Shown here: positions 19,248 through 43,476 of the stretch, piece by piece | Layout of the letters: every line of letters starts with the position of its first letter | Numbering within the stretch: the first letter of the stretch is position 1 | Origin: Closterium sp. NIES-65 | Lineage: Eukaryota; Streptophyta; Zygnematophyceae; Desmidiales; Closteriaceae | Reading direction: 5' to 3' | Assembly: GCA_948144175.1 (NCBI GenBank) | Contig: CANXME010002591.1 | Span: 2,526,501-2,590,500, forward strand | Length of the DNA: 64,000 nucleotides | Notes under the pieces: generated by a model | Told to the model about the DNA's origin: nothing | The model's input: only the letters and a program-made list of their open reading frames with translations | Databases searched by the model: none | Program-made: the position numbers and the translations under genes

Positions 19248-19647
19248 TTTTGGGAACATAAACGCATGACTTAGTGCGTTTCTGTAGTATCGAACCTCAC
19301 CCGATACTGAAGCACAACAAAAGGAGTATGAAGTCGAAAAGGCGCGTACCACATCAAACCGCAACTGGAAGTTGAGAGCCGTAACCGCCTGGAGGTTACG
19401 CAACAGCAGGCGACGCTTCAGTAAACAGTAACCGCCTCGATAGTCGAAGCGTTACGCGTCTCGATAAACATAACCGCTTCCTGTAATCTATCTTTTCTAT
19501 ATATTCCTGTATGCTCTTTGCTTTAATCAATTACTTGTTCTCACATACCAGCACAAGTACATTCACTCAAGTCTTCCGCTGTGCTACTCTAGCACCTACT
19601 AGCCTATTCTCTGCAAAGATCCTAAGGCTGAAATCCTCAGCCCAACA
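19248..19647 (+). repeat. B2 5' LTR (400 bp)
   Basis: Starts TTTTGGGAAC (the 3' copy reads TGTTGGGAAT) and ends CAGCCCAACA. It contains a TATA-like tctatatattcct near 19494-19507. Confidence 0.93.
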
Positions 19648-19659
19648 TGGTATGAGAGC
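19648..19659 (+). promoter_or_regulatory. B2 primer binding site
   Basis: TGGTATGAGAGC directly follows the 5' LTR, as in B1. The leader to the gag ATG is only 95 nt, unlike the long leaders of family A. Confidence 0.87.
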
Positions 19660-19754
19660 AGTCAGAGAACAAAGGCTCTCGTCACTAAGCCTCTTCCAGG
19701 CTACCGATCTGCAAGTAACCAAGAAGTTCAATCTTCATTCAAGAAAGGCAAGAC

Positions 19755-20951
19755 ATGGCAAGTGGCAAAGAAAGAAGATCATCTACGGGATCTACTCTAC
19801 CCCCGGTCTCCGAGCTGCAGACCGAAGGAGGAACAACGCCCGGATTAACGCCGGAAGCGACGGAACGTTCTACTCAAGCGCCAGTAGCGCCGCCAACAAT
19901 CTTCAACCCAAGCTTAATGGAGGAGTTCTTCAACTTCATGTCGCAGCAGCAGTCCTCACAACCTGCAAACAGCAACAGCGTAAACAACGGAGCGGCACCA
20001 ATGAGTATTGACGACTCATCGTTCGGACGACATAATCAACAAACACCAAATTCGGTCTCACCTGGTTCCTTCACGTTCATGCCGCCTCGCCATCCAGCGA
20101 CCCCTCTTCTCGCCATCAAACGAGACACCGAAGAAGTCCTGCAAGTACAAGCACAGTTCAACAACATCCTGCGACTGCACACATCCACACCATTCAACGG
20201 AAAGGACTTCTACTCTTGGAGCTTCGAGTTTGAACTCCTGATGGAAGGCGCGAATCTTCTTGGATTCTTCAACGGTACCTAGCCATATCCACACAACGGC
20301 AAAGACAAAGACAAAGAAAATTATACGTATCACTCCCTGATGGCTTACACCGCTCTTCTCCGAAACCTGTCGTCGAACGAACAACAAAGCATCCGCGCCT
20401 ACCGGAACTACGCAAACTCCGCGGAACTCGCCTATGAACATCTGCGAAGCATTCATCAAGCATCCAACAGCGTTACACAAAGCCGACTCATGGCACAACT
20501 GACAACAGTTCAAATGCAACCTGGAGAAAAGGCCATGCCTTACATCAGTCGCTGTCAAGGACTACGCGACAGACTTATTCGCTGCTGAGGAAACTTATCT
20601 GAAGAAGCTTTCGTAACCGTCGTTCTTGCCGGCCTTGGACCTCAATGGCGCACCGCCCGTTCACTTCTTCGCGCTCACGGTCGACTCTCCGAAATGCATC
20701 TCTGCGCCGAACTTCACGCCGAGCAGCAGGAAATGGACCTGTTCAAAGAACGCAACAACAAAAGGCATCATCAACCAGTTGTTCTTTACACCAATCGACG
20801 ACAGCCACGTTACCAAAACCGAGGACACGTACCTCCTTATTGTCATCTGTGTCGGACTTCAGGACACACACGCTTCAACTGCCCTCAGCAACAACGACAA
20901 CCAGCGCCATTGTCGTGTCCTCTGCGACCCGCGCCTCCCCACATCGCGTGA
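19755..20951 (+). pseudogene. B2 gag
   Basis: Gag of copia B. It starts at ATG 19755 and runs in one frame, with stops at 20280-20282, 20586-20588 and 20949-20951, into pol. Segments include SRR-type Ser/Pro-rich residues 1 to about 110, then NILRLHTSTPFNGKDFYSWS, LMAYTALLRNLSSNEQQSIR, NSAELAYEHLRSIHQ and EKAMPYISRCQGLRDRLI. The zinc knuckle CHLCRTSGHTRFNC (CX2CX4HX4C) is intact at nt about 20850. Because gag and pol are in the same frame, the element probably makes a single polyprotein, as copia elements do. This copy would need readthrough at three sites. Confidence 0.88.
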
Positions 20952-23537
20952 ACTCAACAACGACCCGCTACCGCCTCAACGACTACTTCAACGCGACCGT
21001 CAACTTCCACTTCGGGACCTGCACAGACATCAAGAATCGTCGCCATGACACGAACAACAGAGTCAAACATTGACTCGTGTATTACCGGCTCACCACCGAC
21101 TTACAGTCCTGATGACCAACCGTCACCACCACCGTCGTCCCTTAACGTGAATCCAACGTACGCCGCCATCGCGAACAATGCACCCACCGGACCAGACACA
21201 TGGTTCCTCGACAGCTGTTGCGGTCATCACATGTGCTCTTCATCACGATTTCTTCAGCGCGAACGACGTCTTCCGCGAGACGTCATCATCACCGTCGCCA
21301 ACAACGAAAACCTGCGCACCAACAAACAAGGAGTCGTGGAGCTTCAGTCAAACGAAACAAACGTTATCCTTCAACTAAACAAAGTACTCGTCGTCGACAA
21401 CCTCGGCTTCAACTTACTGAGCGTCAGCCAACTCATGTCGAAAGGCGTTCACCTGGAGTGCGACTCCGACGCCCTGGAATTCCGTCTTTACCACGGAAAA
21501 GGGGGGGTCTTCATCGGCCGCGCAATCCAACAAGATGACGTGTTCGTCCTCGATTTCGTCCCCGACAAAGGCACCGCAGACAGCGACGGCATAGTCGCTC
21601 TCGCACCTTGGACGCATCCGCCAGACCTCGACCCGAACTTCAGTCCTGAAGGCTTCTGGTACTCTCGTACCATTCCCGAAGCTGAACGCACCAACGCGCT
21701 TGCCGTCTTGCAAACACAAGCAACAACACCTGAGTCAGCACCCGTCATCGAAACAACAACTGCACCCGTCACAGCACCAACAACCACCGAACCTGCAGTT
21801 GAAGAACCAACCGTCGTCGCAGAACAACCTTCCGAAACTCCACAGCCCGGTCCCTCCGTCGCACCACCACCTCTCATCATCGACACGCCACCGACAGCCG
21901 CCCAACAGTTAACGCCAGCACCACGCGCCGTTCATCAAAGTGCAGCAACACACGCCGCCTTTTTCGCTAACGCAGGCTTCTATCAACGCTCCGTCGGTCA
22001 CAGCGCCTCCGAAGACATCTGGCATCAACGTCTTAGACATCCTGGAAACAAAACACTTTACAGCACAATACGAGCCGGAGTGTTAGACAAGAACGCCCTA
22101 CTTCTTCCCAACGGACGTGAACTCGAACGACCACGCGGCACTTGCTTCATCTGCCCGGAAGGAGATGTGCCTCACCAACCATTCCCATCACATCACAACC
22201 CGAGCGCCCCCGTTTATCAACCACTCGAGAAAGTCTACAGCGACATCCTCTACATACCTCGAACTGAAGGACGTGAAGATCTGAACTACGTCATCACCTT
22301 CATCGACGCCGCAACGCGATATGTCTGGCACGTCAACTTACCGTCACGAGACATGGCTCTAGAAGCCTTCACAGCCTGGCTACATGTCGCTGAAAGAGAG
22401 TCGGGAGCGAAACTGAAGAGTTTTCAGTCAGATGGCGCAAAGGAGTACCAGTCAAACCACTTCACGCAGTTCTTGGCAGAAAGAGGCATCAAACGCCTCA
22501 TCTCTCTTCCTTACGCTCACCAACAGCAGGGTGTGGCAGAAAGGATGAACAGGACCCTGCAGACAACCATGCGAAAGCTGCTACGTGGAACTCGACTGCC
22601 CAACTCAGAATGGCCAGCAGCGATGGACCACGCTGTCCTCCTGCACAACTTGCTGTCCTCGTCTTCACTGCCCAACAACGCATCTCCGCACCTGTTGTGG
22701 ACTGGGAAGCTGGGCAACACAAAAATGTTAAGAGTTTTTGGGTGTATGGTACAGTACCGCCCACACACTGCACGCGCAGGGAGATTTTCGCAACGTGCAC
22801 AGTGGGGTCTACACCTCGGGCTGGCAAAACATTACGAAGCCTGGCGCATCTTCGACGTTCACACAAAGGAAATAGTAGCAGCGCGTGACGTTATCTTCTA
22901 CGAGCGACTCACCCTCAACCATTACCTAGACAACATCGCACGCCACGTCGACCCCACCGGCGGATTTTCTGGTTCTCGAGCCTTTGCTTCACCCTCCGAC
23001 GCTGCTGACTGGGAAGAAGAAAACGTCGACGGCGTCTGTGAAGCTGCTGGACCCCTTCCCTACTGCTCCGTCCCAATCCCCACGGACGAGGAAAATCCTC
23101 GCGACAGCAACAATGCCGACGTCTACTACCATTTCGCCGACACTGGTTACGTAACACCCCAACCCGTCAACACCGACATCTCTGAACGATACGGCCCCGG
23201 ATTCGCACCTGATCCTGAAGCGGGAGACGAAGCAGTCTATCCTGAGGATCCCTTGCTGAACCGTCACACCCCCAGCGGACTCCAAGTCCTGGGACTCGTC
23301 GCTGCAGTGCACGGGCCTTCGTCGCCACCTGAAGAGCCTCGCTCTGTCAAGCAGGCTCTAGGGGGGGGAACACAAAGAAAAATGGCGCAAAGCCATGGAA
23401 AAGGAGTTAAAAGCGCTTTCAGACCGCAACATCTGGAAGATCGTCCCTGCATCACTCGCACAAGACAGACCCATTCTCTCCGGAAAATGGGTATTCCGGA
23501 TCAAAACCAACTCCGACGGAACCATCGAACGATTTAA
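20952..23537 (+). pseudogene. B2 pol: protease, pre-integrase, integrase
   Basis: This continues the gag frame. Protease: DTWFLDSCCGHHMCSSSRF (DSC instead of DSG) and LGFNLLSVSQLMSKG. Pre-integrase: IWHQRLRHPGNKTLYSTIRAG with CFICPEGDVPH. Integrase: EKVYSDILYIPR, YVITFIDAATRYVWHV, KSFQSDGAKEYQS and QQQGVAERMNRTLQ (D, D and E positions present), then the C-terminal GCMVQYRPHTARAGRFSQRA. At 23361-23368 a run of eight G (one more than the frame allows) shifts the reading frame, which then ends at 23537. RT continues in the next frame. Confidence 0.88.
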
Positions 23538-23738
23538 AGCTCGATGGGTCGTCCGCGGATTCGACCAAGAGTATGGTCGCGACTTCACTGAAACTTTTGC
23601 ACCAGTCAGTCGACATACTTCCCTGCGTATACTCCTCGCCATCGCCGCCTCACGTCGCCGCCCACTCCGACAAATCGACGTCGCCAACGCTTTTCTGTAC
23701 GCCCCAGTCGACGCTGAAATCTTCGTCGAACAGCCCCA

Positions 23739-23877
23739 TGTCAGAATCCCAACCACTAGACCATTGGGATAAAAGGGCTTGTTTAAGTAGCGGGTCAGTG
23801 CGCCCATAACCCCCCAGGAAACCGTGCCTGTAACCCTTCCCTAGGATCAATCGGGGATCACCAGTGGACCTCTGACA
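23739..23877 (-). repeat. TRIM LTR (3' copy)
   Basis: 139 bp. It differs from the other copy only near its left end (tgtcag versus tgtcaa). Confidence 0.93.
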
Positions 23878-23905
23878 CCCCCCTGCACTGGGATGCCCGA
23901 AGTGC

Positions 23906-23978
23906 ATACACCGGGATTCGAACCCGAGACCTTCGCTCTGATACCATGTCAAAATCCCAACCACTAGACCATTGGGAT
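23906..23978 (-). promoter_or_regulatory. Possible internal Pol III promoter of the TRIM (A and B boxes)
   Basis: On the minus strand TGGTCTAGTGG (A box) is followed after 36 nt by GGTTCGAATCC (B box consensus GGTTCGANNCC). The B box sits in a T-arm-like hairpin TCGGG-TTCGAAT-CCCGG. The two boxes straddle the LTR/PBS junction. There is no acceptor stem, so it is not a tRNA gene. Promoter function is inferred. Confidence 0.55.
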
Positions 23979-24085
23979 AAAAGGGCTTGTTTAAGTAGCG
24001 GGTCAGTGCGCCCATAACCCCCCAGGAAACCGTGCCTGTAACCCTTCCCTAGGATCAATCGGGGATCACCAGTGGACCTCTGACA
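23947..24085 (-). repeat. TRIM LTR (5' copy)
   Basis: 139 bp. On the minus strand its last 30 nt hold the A-box-like TGGTCTAGTGG within the hairpin CCCAA...TTGGG, directly before the PBS. Confidence 0.93.
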
Positions 24086-25260
24086 CCCCACGGGTTCGTC
24101 GACGACTCTTCCCTCGTCTGCCAACTACTTAAATCACTATACGGAATTAAGCAGGCACCGCGACTCTGGCAGCACTACTTGCACGCACGACTTAAACGCA
24201 TCGGATTCAACCAACTGCCCCATGACCAGGGCATGTATCGCCTCACTCACGACAACGACTACGTCCTGCTAATCGTCTACGTCGACGATTTACTTTACAT
24301 CGGGTCAACTACCACCATCGTCACCTGGTTCGAAAGGGAGCTTCAGACAGATCTCTCCCTCACAGTCTCACCCAACGTCACGCAGTACCTAGGGCTCAGC
24401 ATCCTCGACGAAGACAACGCCATTTGTCTCAGCGCCTCAAAATACGCAAGCACTATTGCCGAACGCTTCTGCATCACACCGACGCACGTCACAACACCCT
24501 ACAGTCACCTATCGCTCGATCCAACCGAAGAAACCAACCCACTGCTGTCTGCTGGAATCCAGGAATATCAACAGAAACTGGGCTGCCTACTCTTTGCCGC
24601 CGTTACGTGCCGACCGGACTTATCCTACAGCGCCAGTCAACTAGCGACCTACCTCAAGCGCCCAGAACATCGTCACCTCAAGGAACTCAACCGTGCCCTT
24701 CTCTACTTCATCTCGACGCCAACAGTTGGCTTAACGTATCACAAGAGCACGACGACCGACCTAAAACTACTCGGCTACGTCGACGCTGATCACGCTGCTG
24801 ATCGTGTCGATCGTCGCTCTCGCACCGGCTACATCTACCGTCTCGAGCCCGTCGGAACTATCTCCTGGCAATCAAGTAAGCAGGAACTCGTCGCACTATC
24901 ATCTGCTGAAGCAGAGTATATTGCTCTCTGCACCGCTACCAAGGAAGGTCTGTACCTGCGCGAACTGCTGGAAGAAGCAAAAATTGCGAAAGTACCCAGC
25001 TTCTCGCTTTTCTGCGACAACCAGTCCGCGATACGAATCGCGAACAAGAATGGCTTCGCCAACAGAACCAAGCATATCGCACTGCGATACTTCTTCGTGA
25101 AAGACGAAATTGAGAAGGGAAAACTCCAGCTGGACTACTGCCCGACCACCGAGATGGCAACAGATTATCTCACCAAGAAGCTACCAAAGGGGAAATTCGA
25201 GTACTGCATGCTGCTCACCGGATTGGGCCACGTCACCGAAGCTGACCACGTCGACACTCC

Positions 25261-25275
25261 AGAAACGAAGGGGAG
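25261..25275 (+). promoter_or_regulatory. B2 polypurine tract
   Basis: AGAAACGAAGGGGAG abuts the 3' LTR. It overlaps the RNase H reading frame. Confidence 0.8.
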
Positions 25276-25675
25276 TGTTGGGAATATAAACGCATGACTT
25301 AGTGCGTTTCTGTAGTATCGAACCTCACCCGATACTGAAGCACAACAAAAGGAGTATGAAGTCGAAAAGGCGCGTACCACATCAAACCGCAACTGGAAGT
25401 TGAGAGCCGTAACCGCCTGGAGGTTACGCAACAGCAGGCGACGCTTCAGTAAACAGTAACCGCCTCGATAGTCGAAGCGTTACGCGTCTCGATAAACATA
25501 ACCGCTTCCTGTAATCTATCTCTTCTATATATTCCTGTATGCTCTTTGCTTTAATCAATTACTTGTTCTCACATACCAGCACAAGTACATTCACTCAAGT
25601 CTTCCGCTGTGCTACTCTAGCACCTACTAGCCTATTCTCTGCAAAGATCCTAAGGCTGAAATCCTCAGCCCAACA
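25276..25675 (+). repeat. B2 3' LTR (400 bp)
   Basis: TGTTGGGAAT...CAGCCCAACA, nearly identical to 19248-19647. Confidence 0.95.
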
Positions 25676-25680
25676 TCGCG

Positions 25681-36000: not shown

Positions 36001-36134
36001 TGTCAGAATATTATAGCTTACTCATTTATGTAGGCTATAGTGGGGTATCCCATAGGGGGTACAACCCAGTTAGGGTTTCCTATTTGTACTCACTTCGTTC
36101 ATAGTTCACGCATTCTCTCGTTCACTTCTTGTCA
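36001..36134 (+). repeat. A2 5' LTR (134 bp)
   Basis: TGTCAGAATATT...TTCTTGTCA. It is preceded by TSD GAAGC. Confidence 0.96.
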
Positions 36135-36200
36135 TGGAATCAGAGCAGGTTCCCCTGTGGGAACTGTGCTTCGGGCCCACCACCTAGAACTTTTTTTTTC
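36135..36200 (+). promoter_or_regulatory. A2 PBS, hairpin and GGGCCCACC box
   Basis: PBS tggaatcagagc (36135-36146), stem GTTCCC-cctgt-GGGAAC class, then GGGCCCACCAC and a T10 run. The hairpin and box match A1, A3, D and F. Confidence 0.85.
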
Positions 36201-36204
36201 TGCC

Positions 36205-37060
36205 CTGGCGCCCGCCCTAGCGCCCGCCCTAGCGCCCGCCCTTTCGAGCCGCCCGTTAGCGCCGCCCGTTAGCGCCGCCTGTTAGCGCCGCCCGTGCGGC
36301 TGCCCGTTCGCGCCGCCCTTTGCGCAGCCAGTAGCGCCGCCCGTGCGGCCGCCCGTTAGCGCCGCCCGTGCGGCCGCCCGTAGCGCCGCCCGTGAGCCGC
36401 CGCCCGTAGCGCCGCCCGTGAGCCGCCGCCCGTCGCGCCACCCTTTAGCGCCGCCCGTGCGCCGCCGCCCGTGAGCGCCGCCCGTGACGCAGCCGCCCGT
36501 GAACCGCCGCCCGTGACGCCGCCGCCCGTCCCGCCGCCCGCCCGTCACGCCGCCCGCCCGTGAGCCGGCGCTGCCCGCAAACCGCCCACCCGTGGGCCTT
36601 CAGCCCGCCCGTGAACTGCCGACGCCGCCCGTGAGCAGCCGACGCCGCCGACGCCGCCCGTGAGCCGCCGACGCCACCCGTGAGCCGCCGACGCCGCTGC
36701 CGCTGCCGTCGCCCGTGAGCCGCCGACGCCGCCGACGCCGCCCGTGAGCCGCCGACGCCGCTGCCGCTGCCGTCGCCCGTGAGCCGCCGACGCCGCCGCC
36801 GCCGCCCGTGAGCCGCCCTGGCCGCCCGCCCAGCCGCCCGTGAGCTCCCCGCGCGCCGTCCCAGCCGCCCGTGAGCCGCCACCGAGCCGCCCCAGCCGCC
36901 CGTGCCGCCGCCCGAGCCGCCTGAGCCGCCCGAGCCGCCCGGGCCGCTCGCGCCGCCCTAGCCACCCGAGCCGCCCGAGCCGCCCGAGCCGCCCGAGCCG
37001 CCCGAGCCGCCCGAGCCGCCCGAGCCGCCCGAGCCGCCCGAGCTGCCCGAGCCGCCAGAG
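36205..37060 (+). repeat. A2 leader: GC-rich tandem arrays
   Basis: First cgccgcccgt(g/t)agc-like units (36240-36560), then gtgagccgccgacgccgc-like units (36560-36830), then about 12 copies of the 9-mer cgagccgcc (36945-37055). The long frames on both strands here are shadows. Confidence 0.9.
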
Positions 37061-37165
37061 GAGCTGCACTCCTGCTCCTGTCGGGCTACTGCTGCTCCTG
37101 GGCTGTGTACCTGCGCCGCTGACCTACCCGACTCTTCCTGCCCGGTGAGACTGTCAGCTGCTGTC

Positions 37166-40100
37166 ATGGCCACCCCCAATGTCCTAGCTTTTGACGCTGA
37201 GGGTAGAGCCATTGACTTTGCAGTCTGGATTGAAGACCTGCAGCTGTACTTACTGTGTGATGCGGTCGATGAGGTCTCTCTCTTTGACTTTGTCTCTGGC
37301 GCTGTCCCTGCCCCTCCTACTGATGCTGATTCCGCCGTTCGCTCCAAGTGGGCGACCCGCGATGCTGCTGCACGTCTTGCTGTGCGTCGCCACCTCACTT
37401 CCTCCGAGCGTGCCCACTTTAGTCAGTGCAAGACCGCTCAGGCCTTGTACGACGCTGTAGTTGCACGCTACTCCTCCCCTTCCTCCGCTACGCTGAGCCG
37501 CCTCATGCTACCTTTTCTCTTCCCTGACCTCGCTGCCTTTCCCACTGTCGCTGACCTCATTACCCACCTCCGTGCTAGTGACGCTCGCTACCGCGCTGCC
37601 CTTCCTGCTGAGTTCTGCGCCGCCAACCCTCCTCCCATGTACATCACTCTCTACTTTCTTGTCACCCGTCTCCCTGAGTCCCTTCGTGTCGTTAGGGACC
37701 AGTTTCTCTCTTTCTGTCCCACCACCCTCACTGTCGACCTCCTTGAGGAGTCCCTGCTAGCGGCTGAGAAGAGCATAGTCGCTGTAGGGGCCTCTCGGGG
37801 TGACCCTCGCACCCCCATCTTTGAGGGGTGTTCTCCTTCCCCCCTGCTGCCCTCTGTCGCCTCTGCCGCTGCGGCCGACCTCGCTGGTTTTGAGTCGGTC
37901 GGTGCGGCGTCTGCCCCCAGCGGTAGACGCCGCTCTGGCAAGGGCAAGGGGGGCAAGGGAGCGGGTGGAGCTAGAGGAGGCAGTGGCGGAGGAGGTGGGG
38001 GTGGCGGGGGGAGTGGGGGTGGCAGTGGAGGTGGTGGCGGGAGTGGAGGTACTGGTGGAGGCGGTGGAGGCGGAGGTGGCGGCGGAGGCGGTAGCGGAGG
38101 AGGCGGGGGCGAGGGTACCAGTGGGGGCGGTGGCGGTGGAGACGGGGGCGGTGGTGGAGGCGGGAGTGGCGGTGGCGGCGGGGGTCGGAGTGGCTCGTCC
38201 CAGCGGAGCAGCTCTGGGGGTGGTCAGCGCCAGCAGCAGCAGCAGCAGCAGCGCACTCGCACCGTCCCCGCCCCTCAGCAGCTCCGTGAGTGGTACTTGC
38301 AGCGTCAGCGTGGTGGTGCGTTTGGTCCCTGCCCCTACGTTCTTCGCACCGGCGACCGTGCGGGGGAGAGGTGTGGAGGCACCCACACAGCCCACCGCTG
38401 CTTTGGCCGCCTGACCGATGCCTGGCGTCAGCAGTTTCCGGAGGCCGCTGAGATCCCCCGCTGGGGGGAGCTGTCTAGGGCTGGTGTAGCCGTTTATGAT
38501 CTTGACTTTGATGCTATTCTTTCTGCTATGTATGTTGTGACTGGTAGTGATGAGGATGACTGTTACTGGTGTTTCCCGCCCGACCCGGGCATTGGTACTG
38601 CTGCGTCAGGTACTAGTGAGGCTGCTGCTCTAGGTGCCAGTGCGTCTGTGCTCTCAGGTACTGGTGAGTCTGCCCTCTCAGGTACTGTGTCGGCTTCGGC
38701 CTCTCACACCTTCACCCTTGACTCTGGAGCTTCTCGCTCCTTCTTTCGGGACCGCACTACTCTCACGCCGCTGAGTCGGCCGGTTGCGGTGTCCCTGGCT
38801 GACCCCTCTGGGGGGCCTGTCCTGTCTCGCTTCTCCACGGTACTTCCGTGTCCGGCGGCCCCCTCTGGCACCCTGTCTGGTCTCTACCTCCCCTCGTTCT
38901 CGACGAACCTGGTGAGTGGTGCTGACCTACAGGATGCGGGTGTCCACCAGTTCACTCCTGCTCGTCAGCGGGTGACCCACTGCACGGAGGCTAGCACGGG
39001 ACGCCACCTGGCTACGTTTACACGTCGGCCAGGGTCGAGCCTGTACACACTGACCACTGCTTCTCCTCCAGGTACTGAGTCTGGTAGGGTCCCTTCGTCT
39101 GGTCAGGTGTTTGCCGCAGCGTCCAGGTCTGGTCCTGAGTCTTCCCCCTGTTCGTGTCGTCGTCTGTCTCACGAGACCCTCCTCTGGCACCACCGCCTTG
39201 GCCACCCCTCTCTGCTTCGGCTCAGAGGCATGGCCTCCCGTCTTCTTGTGTCTGGTCTCCCCCGGTCTCTACCTCCCCTTCCTCAGGGCCCTGGCCCTGC
39301 CTGTGTCCCCTGTGTCGAGGGGCGCCAGCGTGCTGCCCCTCACTCCTCCCAGTTTCCTCCGACAGAGGCCCCGCTGCAGACACTTCACATGGACGTGTGG
39401 GGCCCAGCCCGCGTCCGTGGACAGGGTCAGGAGCGCTACTTCCTGCTCGTTGTTGACGACTACTCGCATTACACCACAGTCTTCCCCTTGCGCAGCAAGG
39501 GTGAGGTTACTGAGGTGCTGATCGACTGGATCCGCGCAGCTCGTCTTCAGCTCAGGCAGAGCTTTGGCTCCGACTTTCCTGTGTTGCGTCTGCACTCTGA
39601 CAGAGGCGGAGAGTTCTCCTCTAGCCTTCTACGTGCCTACTGTCGGGCGCGAGGCATCCGCCAGTCCTTCACGCTTCCGGACTCCCCACAGCAAAATGGG
39701 ATTGCTGAGCGCCGCATTGGCATGGTCATGGACGTCGCCCGTACGTCCATGATGCATGCGGCTGCCCCCCATTTTCTGTGGCCGTTTGCGGTCAGGTACG
39801 CAGCGCATCAGATCAACCTCCACCCCAGGGTCTCCAGGCCGGAGACCTCCCCAGCCCTGCTGTGGACGGGGAAGGTTGGCGATGCGTCGGCGTTCCGGGT
39901 CTGGGGATCTCGAGCGTTTGTCCGCGACTTGTCTGCGGACAAGCTGTCCCCTCGCGCTGCTCCCTGCGTCTTCCTAGGGTTCCCCCCCGACGCCCCTGGG
40001 TGGCAATTCTACCACCCCTCCTCTCGACGTGTTCTGTCCTCCCAGGACGTCACGTTCGACGAGTCGGTACCCTACTACCGCCTCTTCCCCTACCGCACTC

Positions 40101-43100
40101 CGTCCCTCCCCCCACCCCCGCTCTTCTTGGTACCAGGTCCCCCCCCGGTAGTCCCCCTCCCCCCTCAGGGTCCTGCCCCTTCAGGTGTGTCCCAGGTAGA
40201 CGCGGTCGAGCCTGTCGAGGTCACTGGTGACTCTGGTGCTGCTGCGGGAGCTGAGCCTGGGGGTGCGGAGTCTGGGGGTGCTGAGCCTGGGGGTGCGGAG
40301 TCTGGGGGTGCTGAGCCTGGGGGTGCGGAGTCTGGGGGTGCTGAGTCTGGGGGTGCTGAGCCTGGGGGTGCTGAGCCTGGGGGTGCTGAGCCTGGAGGTG
40401 CTGCGCCTGGGGGTGCTGTGTCTGGGGGTGCTGAGCCTGGAGGTGCCGAGCCTGGGGGTGCTGCGCCTGGGAGTGCTATGCCTAGGGGTGCTGAGCCTGG
40501 GGGTGCTGAGCCTGGGGGTGCTTCGTCTCGCCGGGAGCCACTCTCCCCACAGGAGCTGCGTGAGTGGTTTGCCAGGCGCTGGAGGCGTGCTGCTGGTGCG
40601 GGTGGTTCTTCGGCTGCAGAGGGCACTGCTGCCGCGCGTCCCGGCGGTGCTCGTCCTGTGGGTGCTGGAGCTGCTGGGTCTGCGAGTTCTTCTGGAGCTG
40701 GTGCTGCTGAGGGTGTTGGCGCTGAGCCTGCCGCTGGCGGTCCGACTGACAGTGCTCCTGGTGCTGCTGCTGGAGGTTCTGGAGCTTCTGGTGGTGCTGC
40801 TGGAGGTGCTACTGGAGTGGGTGCTCCTGCCGGGGGTGCTGGTGCTGTTCCTGCTGTTTCTGGCGTCGCCGCGCGGCCCCGACCGTACTTCGTTCCGCTC
40901 CTGCAGCAGGTTCTTCGTCTTCCACCTCCTCCTCCTCCCTTAGAGGGTCCGCAGCCTGTCCGGTCACAGCCACAGCTACAGCCTGCCTCCCCTTTGCCTG
41001 CTCCTTCTCCCTACGCTGGTCCGACTGGAGGTCTTACTGAGCGTCGTGAGCCTGCGTCTCGTCCTGCGTCGCCTGTTCGTACTGAGCGCGCTAGTGGTCG
41101 CGGGTCGCGTCAGCGTCCTCCTCCTGTCCCTGGCACGCACCGGATGTCACTGCGTCCGTCCACTGCTCCTCTGCGTGCCCCTTTACCTTCTCCTCCTGCT
41201 TCCTCTCTTCCTGCTCTTGCCGACCCGGAGTCGGACTCTCTTCGTGCTGCCAGTCCTACTGTCACGCGTCTCCTTGCTACTGCTGTCACTGACCCTTCCT
41301 TCGAGTCGTCTGCTGCGTCTGCCCTTGTCACTGAGCTTGTCGACTTTGCTGCGCGCTGTCGTCTAGACTACGCTGCCAGTCTTGTCGCTGAGTCTGAGTC
41401 TGCCTGTCCTCCGTCCGTCGGGGGTGAGTGTGCCCTCGGCACGGACGTCCTTGAGGACAGGCAGGAGGAGTTCCAGTGTCTGGCCGCCGCTTTACCCCAT
41501 CTCGCGTCTGTACTGCTAGCCCCTGAGGGAGACCCGGATGCACCAGACATCCCGACTCCGCGCTCTTACGCGGAGGCGATAGAGGGTCCCTACTCCTCTC
41601 AGTGGCAGGCAGCTATGGATGCAGAGATGGCTTCCTGGAAGTCCACAGGCACCTACGTCGACGCTGTCCCCCCTTCTGGGGCGAACATCGTCAGTGGCAT
41701 GTGGATTTTCAGGGTGAAGCGGCCGCCGGGTTCTCCGCCTGTCTTCAAGGCGCGTTACGTGGCTCGTGGCTTCAGTCAGCGGCAGGGGGTTGACTACTTT
41801 CAGACCTTCTCCCCCACCCCGAAGATGACCACTCTTCGGGTTCTGCTGCACGTTGCTGCTCACCGTGACTACGAGCTGCACTCTCTCGACTTCAGCACAG
41901 CTTTCTTGCAGGGCAGTCTGCACGAGGAGATCTGGCTGCGCCGCCCACCTGGCTTCACTGGGTCTTTCCCTCCTGGTACCCAGTGGAGTCTCCGGCGTCC
42001 AGTCTACGGTCTCCGCCAGGCGCCACGTGAGTGGCACGACACACTGAGGACTACGCTCGCGGCACTTGGGTTTGCTCCGTCTACTGCCAACCCGTCGCTG
42101 TTTCTGCGCACCGACACCTCTCTGCCGCCGTTCTACATCCTCGTGTACGTCAACGACTTGGTCTTTGCCACAGCTGACACTGCTGGACTCGCCTACGTGA
42201 AGTCCGAGCTGCAGAAGAGACATACGTGCACTGACCTGGGTGAACTGCGTAGCTACCTTGGTTTGCAGATCACCCGGGACAGAGCGCGCCGCACCATTAC
42301 CCTGACTCAGTCACACATGGTGCAGCAGGTCCTTCAGCGCTTCGGCTTCACGTACTCCTCGCCTCAGGCCACTCCTCTGCCTACTCGCCACTCGCTCTCA
42401 GCTCTGCCTTCGGATGAGTCCGTAGAGTCGAGTGGCCCGTACCCAGAGCTTGTTGGCTGCCTCATGTACCTGATGACCTGCACACGTCCTGACCTTGCAT
42501 ACCCTCTTAGCATTCTAGCACGCTATGTTGCTCCTGGGAGACACCGACCAGAGCACATGGCTGCAGCGAAGAGGGTGTTGCGTTACTTGTGCAGTACGTC
42601 GGGCATGGGGCTAGTGCTTGGAGGGCGCAGTCCAGTGGTCCTCACTGGGCACGCAGACGCTTCCTGGGCTGACGACCAGGCTACGCAGCGGTCGTCACAG
42701 GGTTACACCTTCAGCCTTGGCTCCGGCTCTGTTTCGTGGCGGGCTACTCGCTCGTCTTCTGTTCTGGGCTCCAGTTGTGAGGCTGAGATCTACGCTGGGG
42801 CTATGGCTGCACAGGAGTTACGCTGGCTCACCTACCTGCTGACCGACCTTGGAGAGCAGCCTCGTTCTCCTCCAGTCCTGTACGTAGACAACAAGGCCAT
42901 GCTGGCCTTGTGTCGAGAGCAGCGACTGGAGCACAGAACGAAGCACATTGCCCTCCGCTACTTCCTTGCTCGTGAGCTGCAGCAGCGTGGACAGTTGCGA
43001 CTTGCGTACGTGGCCTCTGAGGCCAACACTGCTGATGTCTTCACTAAGGCACTTGCGCCTTGTGATCATCAGCGTTGTTGCACGCAGTTGGGTCTTGTGT

Positions 43101-43129
43101 CTGTCTTGCCTCACTTGCTCACTTCTTGA
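37166..43129 (+). CDS. A2 Gag-Pol polyprotein, 1,987 codons
   Basis: ATG 37166 ([18 protein letters not shown]) is preferred over 37145 because A1 and A3 start at the same codon. Order by residue: Gag core 1-260 ([30 protein letters not shown]); poly-Gly 268-345; Cys/His motif CX13CX3HX4C about 388-412; protease [10 protein letters not shown] about 517; pre-integrase [15 protein letters not shown]...CVPC; integrase HMDVWGPA about 741, [20 protein letters not shown] about 847; [12 protein letters not shown] repeats about 1025-1122; Pro-rich linker; RT from about 1480, active site [10 protein letters not shown] at 1660-1669; RNase [10 protein letters not shown] about 1826, [26 protein letters not shown]. 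The frame is complete, but the first Asp of YVDD is Asn (42152-42154), which should abolish RT. Copia proteins form the particle, cut, copy and integrate the element. Confidence 0.95.
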
Positions 43130-43342
43130 CCTTGCTTGTACCTTCACCTATATATACTCTTGCTCTTACTTGCTTGACTCTTGTATATCTTTATATATGA
43201 TCTTGCATGTGAACTGGCCTTCTGGCCTTTTGAACTTGTGCTCGGAATGTGTGGTGACTTTGTGATCCACCCTGAGCTTTGCTTTGCTTTGCTTGACTGG
43301 TCTTGTGACCCCTTGTTCTCCCCCACTTTGCCTATGGGGGTG
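43130..43342 (+). other. A2 3' untranslated block and PPT
   Basis: Conserved with A1 and A3. It has a TA-rich run (43150-43200), gatccaccctgagc, gctttgctttgc, and PPT ctatgggggtg at 43332-43342. Confidence 0.85.
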
Positions 43343-43476
43343 TGTCAGAATATTATAGCTTACTCATTTATGTAGGCTATAGTGGGGTATCCCATAGGGG
43401 GTACAACCCAGATAGGGTTTCCTATTTGTACTCACTTCGTTCATAGTTCACGCATTCTCTCGTTCACTTCTTGTCA
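43343..43476 (+). repeat. A2 3' LTR (134 bp)
   Basis: Matches 36001-36134 with one substitution noted. It is followed by TSD GAAGC. Confidence 0.96.

Follow-up and report, generated by a model that had tools for sequence, protein, structure and literature searches.

The locus studied here raises the question of how an LTR element of 347 bp, whose reading frames are accidental and give it no coding capacity, obtains the RNA from which new copies are made. The element is a TRIM on the minus strand at 23739..24085 of the window, by which we mean the whole 64-kb stretch of DNA that was analysed (C2293:2526501-2590500 of the 874-Mb assembly of Closterium, a charophyte green alga). An A box lies in its LTR and a B box in its interior, and an earlier note on this DNA had read the pair as a promoter for RNA polymerase III (Pol III). 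Our analysis puts at roughly 60% the probability that the template RNA of this TRIM family, which would move by borrowed copia machinery, is made by Pol III from such a split type-2 promoter.

All features of the element lie on the minus strand, so that in its own sense it runs from 24085 to 23739. A 5' LTR of 139 bp (23947..24085) is followed by the 12-nt PBS TGGTATCAGAGC (23935..23946), which is also found in other PBS-bearing elements of the Closterium genome, and by 57 further bases of interior. The last part of these is the purine tract AGTGCAGGGGGG (PPT, 23878..23889), which adjoins the downstream LTR, also of 139 bp (23739..23877) and with one mismatch to the first. The LTRs read TGTCAG...TTTTGACA, with TG...CA ends, and the target site duplication (TSD) CCCCA stands on either side of the element, at 23734..23738 and 24086..24090. 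Paired LTRs, a total length below 1000 bp, a PBS at the 5' LTR and a purine tract at the 3' LTR make this a TRIM, and the LTRs, PBS, purine tract and TSD that the earlier note described are all present at the coordinates it gave. The A box TGGTCTAGTGG (23961..23971) occupies the 25th to 15th base before the end of the 5' LTR and is enclosed in the hairpin ATCCCAA-A box-TTGGGAT (23954..23978). The B box GGTTCGAATCC (23914..23924) follows at a spacing of 36 nt, 10 nt beyond the PBS and within a T-arm-like hairpin of the interior, again as had been proposed. The A box of the 3' LTR (23753..23763) has no B box after it. The single LTR difference falls between the A and B boxes, where the 5' LTR reads TTTT (23952) and the 3' LTR TTCT (23744); it is repeated in the copy L010b, and the copy L048 has TTTT in both LTRs.

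We asked how often such a pair of boxes is expected by chance, using patterns built on the consensus forms of the A and B boxes. None of 300 Markov-randomised 64-kb windows contained a strict A..B pair at 20-60 nt, loose pairs turned up at a rate of 0.01 per randomised window, and the B-box pattern occurs only once in the window itself. In a sample of 354 kb, made up of the window and 29 stretches of 10 kb and including 5,000 bases of N, every loose A..B pair falls within the TRIM family. There are five matches in four elements, the chimeric copy L010a having two, with an A-like match in a foreign LTR; L010b and L016 lie outside the loose pattern because their B box is altered.

A true tRNA fold was considered and dropped. 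ARAGORN found no tRNA in the window and no host tRNA gene in the 354 kb. The Rfam tRNA model aligned the A-box arm and the T arm together in three copies, scoring 17.2 bits for the window copy and 15.9 and 14.0 for the others, all below the gathering score of 29; it gave no match at E 10 in two further copies, and Rfam scans of the window and five copies returned no 5S family. The stem around the A box that had been noted earlier does exist, but its folding energy is ordinary (z -1.67 for the ATCCCAA/TTGGGAT stem alone, -0.02 for the whole 72-nt tRNA-like stretch). Of the 40 tabulated junctions, 36 close the loop with A-T and 4 with G-C, and none has the pair broken, an observation on one pair only. 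Since ARAGORN finds no tRNA and the best Rfam score of 17.2 bits falls short of 29, the tRNA likeness is confined to the promoter boxes and the T arm: the TRIM is not a tRNA, and its resemblance to one is that of a promoter.

The element belongs to a family. Sampling of 290 kb revealed five further copies (L010b, L012, L013, L016 and the chimeric L010a), and a genome-wide search of the 874-Mb assembly gave at least 41 matches at 97-100% identity, with 40 of 1537 candidates scored. Twenty of these 41 listed matches, most of which stand in its lower half, were read as sequence and represent 15 distinct insertions by their flanks. Identical flanks on different contigs (L030/L033/L034, L035/L036 and L042/L043/L047) mark duplicated or haplotype contigs. 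Together with the window copy, L010b, L012, L013 and L016, the 15 make 20 simple insertions distinct by flank, of which 18 have a perfect 5-bp TSD and two (L031 and L010b) a TSD with one mismatch. Variants occur in both LTRs of one copy, for example at positions 56/264, 93/301 and 138/346, as reverse transcription requires. Among 22 full rows (the window copy, L013 and those 20 matches, chosen by overall identity) six have identical LTRs, and the family has therefore been active recently. The TRIM family is thus real, multicopy and recently active. The earlier reading of the locus as a TRIM is borne out by the many copies, by variants common to both LTRs of a copy, by the 5-bp TSDs and by chimeras in which other LTRs meet the TRIM interior at the PBS. 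A search with the translated TRIM further showed that 56 predicted Closterium proteins (53 + 3; NIES-53 and NIES-54 gene models) carry TRIM stretches at E values up to 1; gaps in these proteins were left out of deletion counts because many seem to have been spliced in silico between a GT of the LTR and the AG of the PBS. No TRIM relatives were found by exact pattern in viral and prokaryote contig collections.

How faithfully the boxes persist was read from 41 LTR|PBS|interior junctions at the DNA level, 40 of them tabulated by pattern and one, that of L012, missed by the pattern and read separately. The A box is exact in 38 of the 41, the B box in 32 and the PBS in 33, with an extra C in the PBS of six. 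All 41 junctions have the A box in the LTR and the B box in the interior, so that the split arrangement is family-wide; a restriction of the boxes to one copy, which would have counted against the earlier note's proposal, is not what was seen. The spacing is 36 nt, except in some lineages where a 3-nt deletion or a 1-nt insertion makes it 33 or 37 nt. Alignments separate two subfamilies, one of the L013 type (LTR 139, interior 69) and one of the L012/L016 type (LTR 140-144, interior 93-95), the latter having gained 27-29 nt behind the B box with the boxes kept. An 86-nt block from the R region to behind the B box differs between L013 and L016 by one substitution and one indel, and between L013 and L012 by three substitutions and one indel, against 18 and 20 events, respectively, in the 122 nt that remain of the 5' LTR and the interior (Fisher p 0.003 for L016 and 0.009 for L012, two tests that are not independent because L012 and L016 are related). 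The A-PBS-B block is thus the best conserved part between subfamilies, a comparison confounded by the constraints on the PBS and the LTR end.

The earlier expectation that the boxes would be conserved above their flanks therefore holds between subfamilies for the block as a whole, but protection of the boxes themselves is not significant within the young subfamily. There the 22 full rows keep the A box exact in 21, the B box in 21 and the PBS in all 22, and of 34 distinct changes (LTRs folded) two fall in the boxes, where 3.6 would be expected (p 0.29). For the stem, both boxes and the PBS taken together, there are two changes where 6.7 would be expected (p 0.025). A second search, by interior tail and 3' U3 only (40 of 581 candidates scored), listed 40 places, of which 20 were read: the 19 absent from the 41-match list plus C21:888550, a set enriched for an unusual 5' part. 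In these the A box is exact in 15 of 16 TRIM LTRs, the remaining change being at a free position, and the B box in 12 of 18. The identical L052 and L053 are among the 20 and have no junction. The recurrent B-box changes are C166T and A168T, in two rows each, and C172T, in 2 + 1 rows, and small lineages without an exact B box may exist. The last base of the A box also failed to show the expected conservation: read-through proteins have Thr or Ile for Val, at the codon opened by the A box's last G, in 12 of 40 A-region readings, and a lineage with A at this base has therefore spread. Most rows of this lineage also read WCQ, which reflects a one-base PBS change. At the protein level 15 of 17 junction rows keep the A and B codons and two lack the B codons; because protein rows were picked by shared words, we prefer the DNA counts.

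These figures bear directly on the alternative that survives best, namely that this is an ordinary TRIM transcribed by Pol II, its A/B-like motifs being relics or chance and the block being kept by the PBS, by the LTR end that integrase needs and by packaging signals. The insignificant protection within the young subfamily speaks for it, as do the B box altered in 6 of 18 interior-tail places, the A box's last base altered in 12 of 40 protein readings, and the position of the PBS and the LTR end between the two boxes. It also gains from a likeness to another PBS-bearing element, whose LTR end (L026:6187-6216) has a 31-nt stretch in common with the TRIM LTR, with CCCTTTTATCCC and CTAGTGGT; ACAARCCCTTTTATCCC and CTAGTGGT are common to both. 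None of 500 shuffles reaches the score of this alignment, which is the best obtained with any of 19 non-TRIM LTR ends. Ordinary LTR sequence may therefore make up part of the A-box region, of which an element of the L026 type is a possible source or partner. On the other hand, chance is unlikely to produce exact forms of both boxes at a workable spacing, given none in 300 randomised windows, and a loose pair stands at no other site in the 354 kb. Moreover, lineages with different U3, LTR ends, PBS and interiors have all kept the A/B pair. We consider transcription by Pol II unlikely on balance, although it is the alternative to be taken most seriously.

The reading that we prefer, a Pol III promoter split between LTR and interior, would work as follows. 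In a type-2 promoter the A and B boxes lie inside the transcript. Here the A box would be supplied by U5 at the LTR end and the B box by the interior, 33-37 nt on and behind the PBS, with the PBS standing in for the anticodon arm of a tRNA. Just upstream of the tRNA-like part lies CAAGCCCTTTT, which contains CAA, presumably a plant-type start, and T4, giving an R region of 10 nt. Pol III would start at CAAG, some 10 nt before the tRNA-like part begins, transcribe U5, PBS, B box, purine tract and U3, and stop at the T4 just upstream of the 3' LTR A box. The RNA would then carry the 10-nt repeat AAGCCCTTTT at both ends. In the window copy the predicted R region lies at 23979..23988 in the 5' LTR, its start and T4 being deduced from the sequence and the copies, and recurs at 23771..23780 in the 3' LTR, where it would act as a Pol III terminator. 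The RNA would be packaged together with copia RNA, primed at TGGTATCAGAGC, which we take to be an initiator-tRNA-type primer site, and reverse transcribed, and the product would integrate, duplicating 5 bp of the target. With the start upstream of the two boxes, both would be copied into every new element, and since they lie inside the transcript a split promoter could be inherited without having to sit in the LTR. A complete promoter would exist only where an LTR meets the interior, 3' and solo LTRs having the A box alone. To the corresponding stronger proposal, that full-length elements are transcribable whereas solo and 3' LTRs are promoter-dead, with the PBS at the anticodon-arm position, we give an even chance. 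We infer the use of Pol III, its start, its stop and the co-packaging. All 5' LTRs of the 22 full rows have an intact T4; in the 3' LTR it is broken in L031 and the L042 set. The Pol III model is weak in two respects: the T4 among the first ten bases of the transcript could itself stop the polymerase, and the window copy, L010b and L048 have a further TTTT between their A and B boxes.

A different role has to be weighed for the T-arm-like hairpin behind the PBS, which might serve reverse transcription or packaging and be the counterpart of hairpins in other PBS-bearing elements. Perfect hairpins of at least 5 pairs do occur within 30 nt behind the PBS at 7 of 19 non-TRIM sites, compared with 10% of shuffles. 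However, these hairpins lack the B-box letters, the energies of the TRIM hairpin are ordinary, and no significant similarity links the TRIM interior with the leaders at the 19 other PBS sites (best shuffle fraction 0.11). A derivation of the interior from other leaders was dropped for want of any significant alignment to these 19 sites. We regard a hairpin that serves these purposes instead of transcription as improbable, more so than a Pol II TRIM, and note that the two roles could coexist. The non-TRIM hairpins directly behind a PBS are those at 36135 and 52669 of the window and in L006, L008, L015, L016 and L027.

In tRNA-derived SINEs the A and B boxes lie 30-40 nt apart, and such elements have no LTRs, PBS, PPT or fixed 5-bp TSD. 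The Closterium TRIM is like them in the spacing of its boxes; unlike them it has LTRs, a PBS, a PPT and a 5-bp TSD, which do not fit an element that lacks LTRs and moves by target-primed reverse transcription. That tandem tRNA-derived SINEs have been misread as LTRs, to which arrays and LTR-LTR junctions (P0121, P0142, L010) and the SINE-like boxes might point, is ruled out for practical purposes by isolated copies that end in TG...CA or TG...GA, with PBS, purine tract and paired LTR variants, and by the 5-bp TSDs of all 20 simple insertions (two with one mismatch).

Several observations bear on the autonomous element that would mobilise the TRIM. The window copy is inserted in the polymerase region of a copia element on the plus strand (19250..25676; LTRs 19250-19648 and 25278-25676, 99.5% identical; ORF pieces 20952-23537 and 24053-25297, plus strand), whose polymerase piece has its best matches in Closterium proteins, 91% to strain NIES-53. 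A further copia element of the window (36001..43476, plus strand) has LTRs that start with TGTCAGA, as the TRIM does, and belongs to the clade of L008, which past its PBS encodes proteins of that clade and whose LTR matches the clade's window LTRs. At L054 the TRIM interior is joined from the PBS onward to a foreign LTR end that equals the LTR end of L008 at 46 of 47 positions. The LTR end that it adjoins at the PBS in L069 resembles the one preceding the PBS at L029:9370 (32/34), and at L010 (1589) the join is to an LTR-like end of unassigned family. A foreign LTR end thus meets the TRIM interior exactly at the PBS at three loci, and at least one of these ends comes from copia. The reverse join occurs at L010 (1242), where a TRIM LTR is followed at the PBS by a leader that resembles those of L008 and of window 52669 (3 and 0 of 500 shuffles as good, respectively). 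Joins at the PBS in both directions are expected from intermolecular plus-strand transfer between co-packaged TRIM and copia, and their exactness suggests that the two share particles, although DNA recombination or assembly joins may be the source instead. The chimeras at L054, L069 and L010 support copia as the candidate autonomous element for mobilisation. The whole arrangement at L010:1231-1637 (minus strand) reads LTR-like end, PBS, TRIM interior, TRIM LTR, adjacent TRIM LTR, PBS and copia-like leader, and it looks like a 2-LTR junction together with a reciprocal chimera.

TRIMs with tRNA-derived sequence in their LTRs have been described as Helenus from fungi, from animals and, among plants, from Selaginella alone; they are grouped as TRIMp3 with Cassandra and Ajax (Kojima 2024, PMC10886601). 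The sole plant Helenus named there, Helenus-1_SMo of Selaginella, has an LTR of 120 bp and an interior of 85 bp. The Closterium TRIM resembles Helenus in its tRNA-type A and B boxes, PBS and PPT and in its 5-bp TSD, found in fungal and plant Helenus; copia is the likely partner of Helenus in fungi (PMC10886601). In contrast, both boxes of Helenus lie inside the LTR, whereas the 41 junctions read here have the B box in the interior, and charophyte algae are not among the hosts listed (PMC10886601). Because its B box is outside the LTR, the Closterium TRIM falls outside the definition of Helenus, yet with its predicted Pol III promoter it would work like a TRIMp3. The fungal pair LTR-1_PTrit and Copia-9_PGr (PMC10886601) likewise ties a TRIMp3 to a copia partner with LTRs that are not shared; the link there is a shared interior, whereas here it consists of PBS-joined chimeras and the interior is unlike copia leaders. 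Cassandra is comparable as a TRIM with the promoter of a small-RNA gene, a predicted one in the Closterium case, and shares with it the same 12-nt PBS and tandem arrays (PMC7215508). The R region of Cassandra is also very short, 18 nt compared with the 10 nt predicted here, and no autonomous partner is indicated for it (PMC10886601). The 5S boxes A and C of Cassandra lie within its LTR and it has no tRNA boxes, whereas the Closterium LTR is not 5S rRNA-like. Cassandra and Helenus have the whole promoter in every LTR, while on the split reading the Closterium TRIM would have it only where LTR and interior meet. Plant TRIM/SMART elements (Gao 2016, PMC4717578) are like it in size, LTR-interior-LTR plan and tandem arrays; the text of that paper does not contain the words 'polymerase III' and 'promoter'.

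The earlier note's claim to novelty is therefore narrowed, since Helenus/TRIMp3 already represents a TRIM with a tRNA-type Pol III promoter; what stands is that a split of the A and B boxes across LTR and interior was not found described in searches of open-licence literature and in PMC10886601. These searches also yielded no later paper with the word TRIMp3 and no paper on TRIMs in Closterium, and PMC10407611 has no word beginning with LTR, retro, SINE or tRNA. Should the split reading be correct, a TRIMp3-like Pol III promoter can be assembled across an LTR boundary, promoter activity would be tied to the full-length element, and TRIMp3-like elements would extend to charophyte algae. The PBS-joined chimeras, with both kinds of join at one locus, would offer a handle on the TRIM's autonomous mover.

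Two sublineages deserve mention. At 15 of the 41 junctions (L038-L040, L048, L049, L051, L055-L057, L059-L062, L064 and L065) the LTR ends in TGAGA rather than TGACA; five full copies of this sublineage have perfect 5-bp TSDs, so that TG...GA ends seem to have been integrated. The PBS with an extra C (TGGTATCCAGAGC), found at L055, L057, L059, L061, L064 and L065, apparently marks an amplified lineage with a changed primer site. Finally, public Closterium gene models hold pieces of the TRIM as exons (P0121-P0176), and gene finders have seemingly taken the PBS (TATCAG) as a splice acceptor, an annotation artefact.
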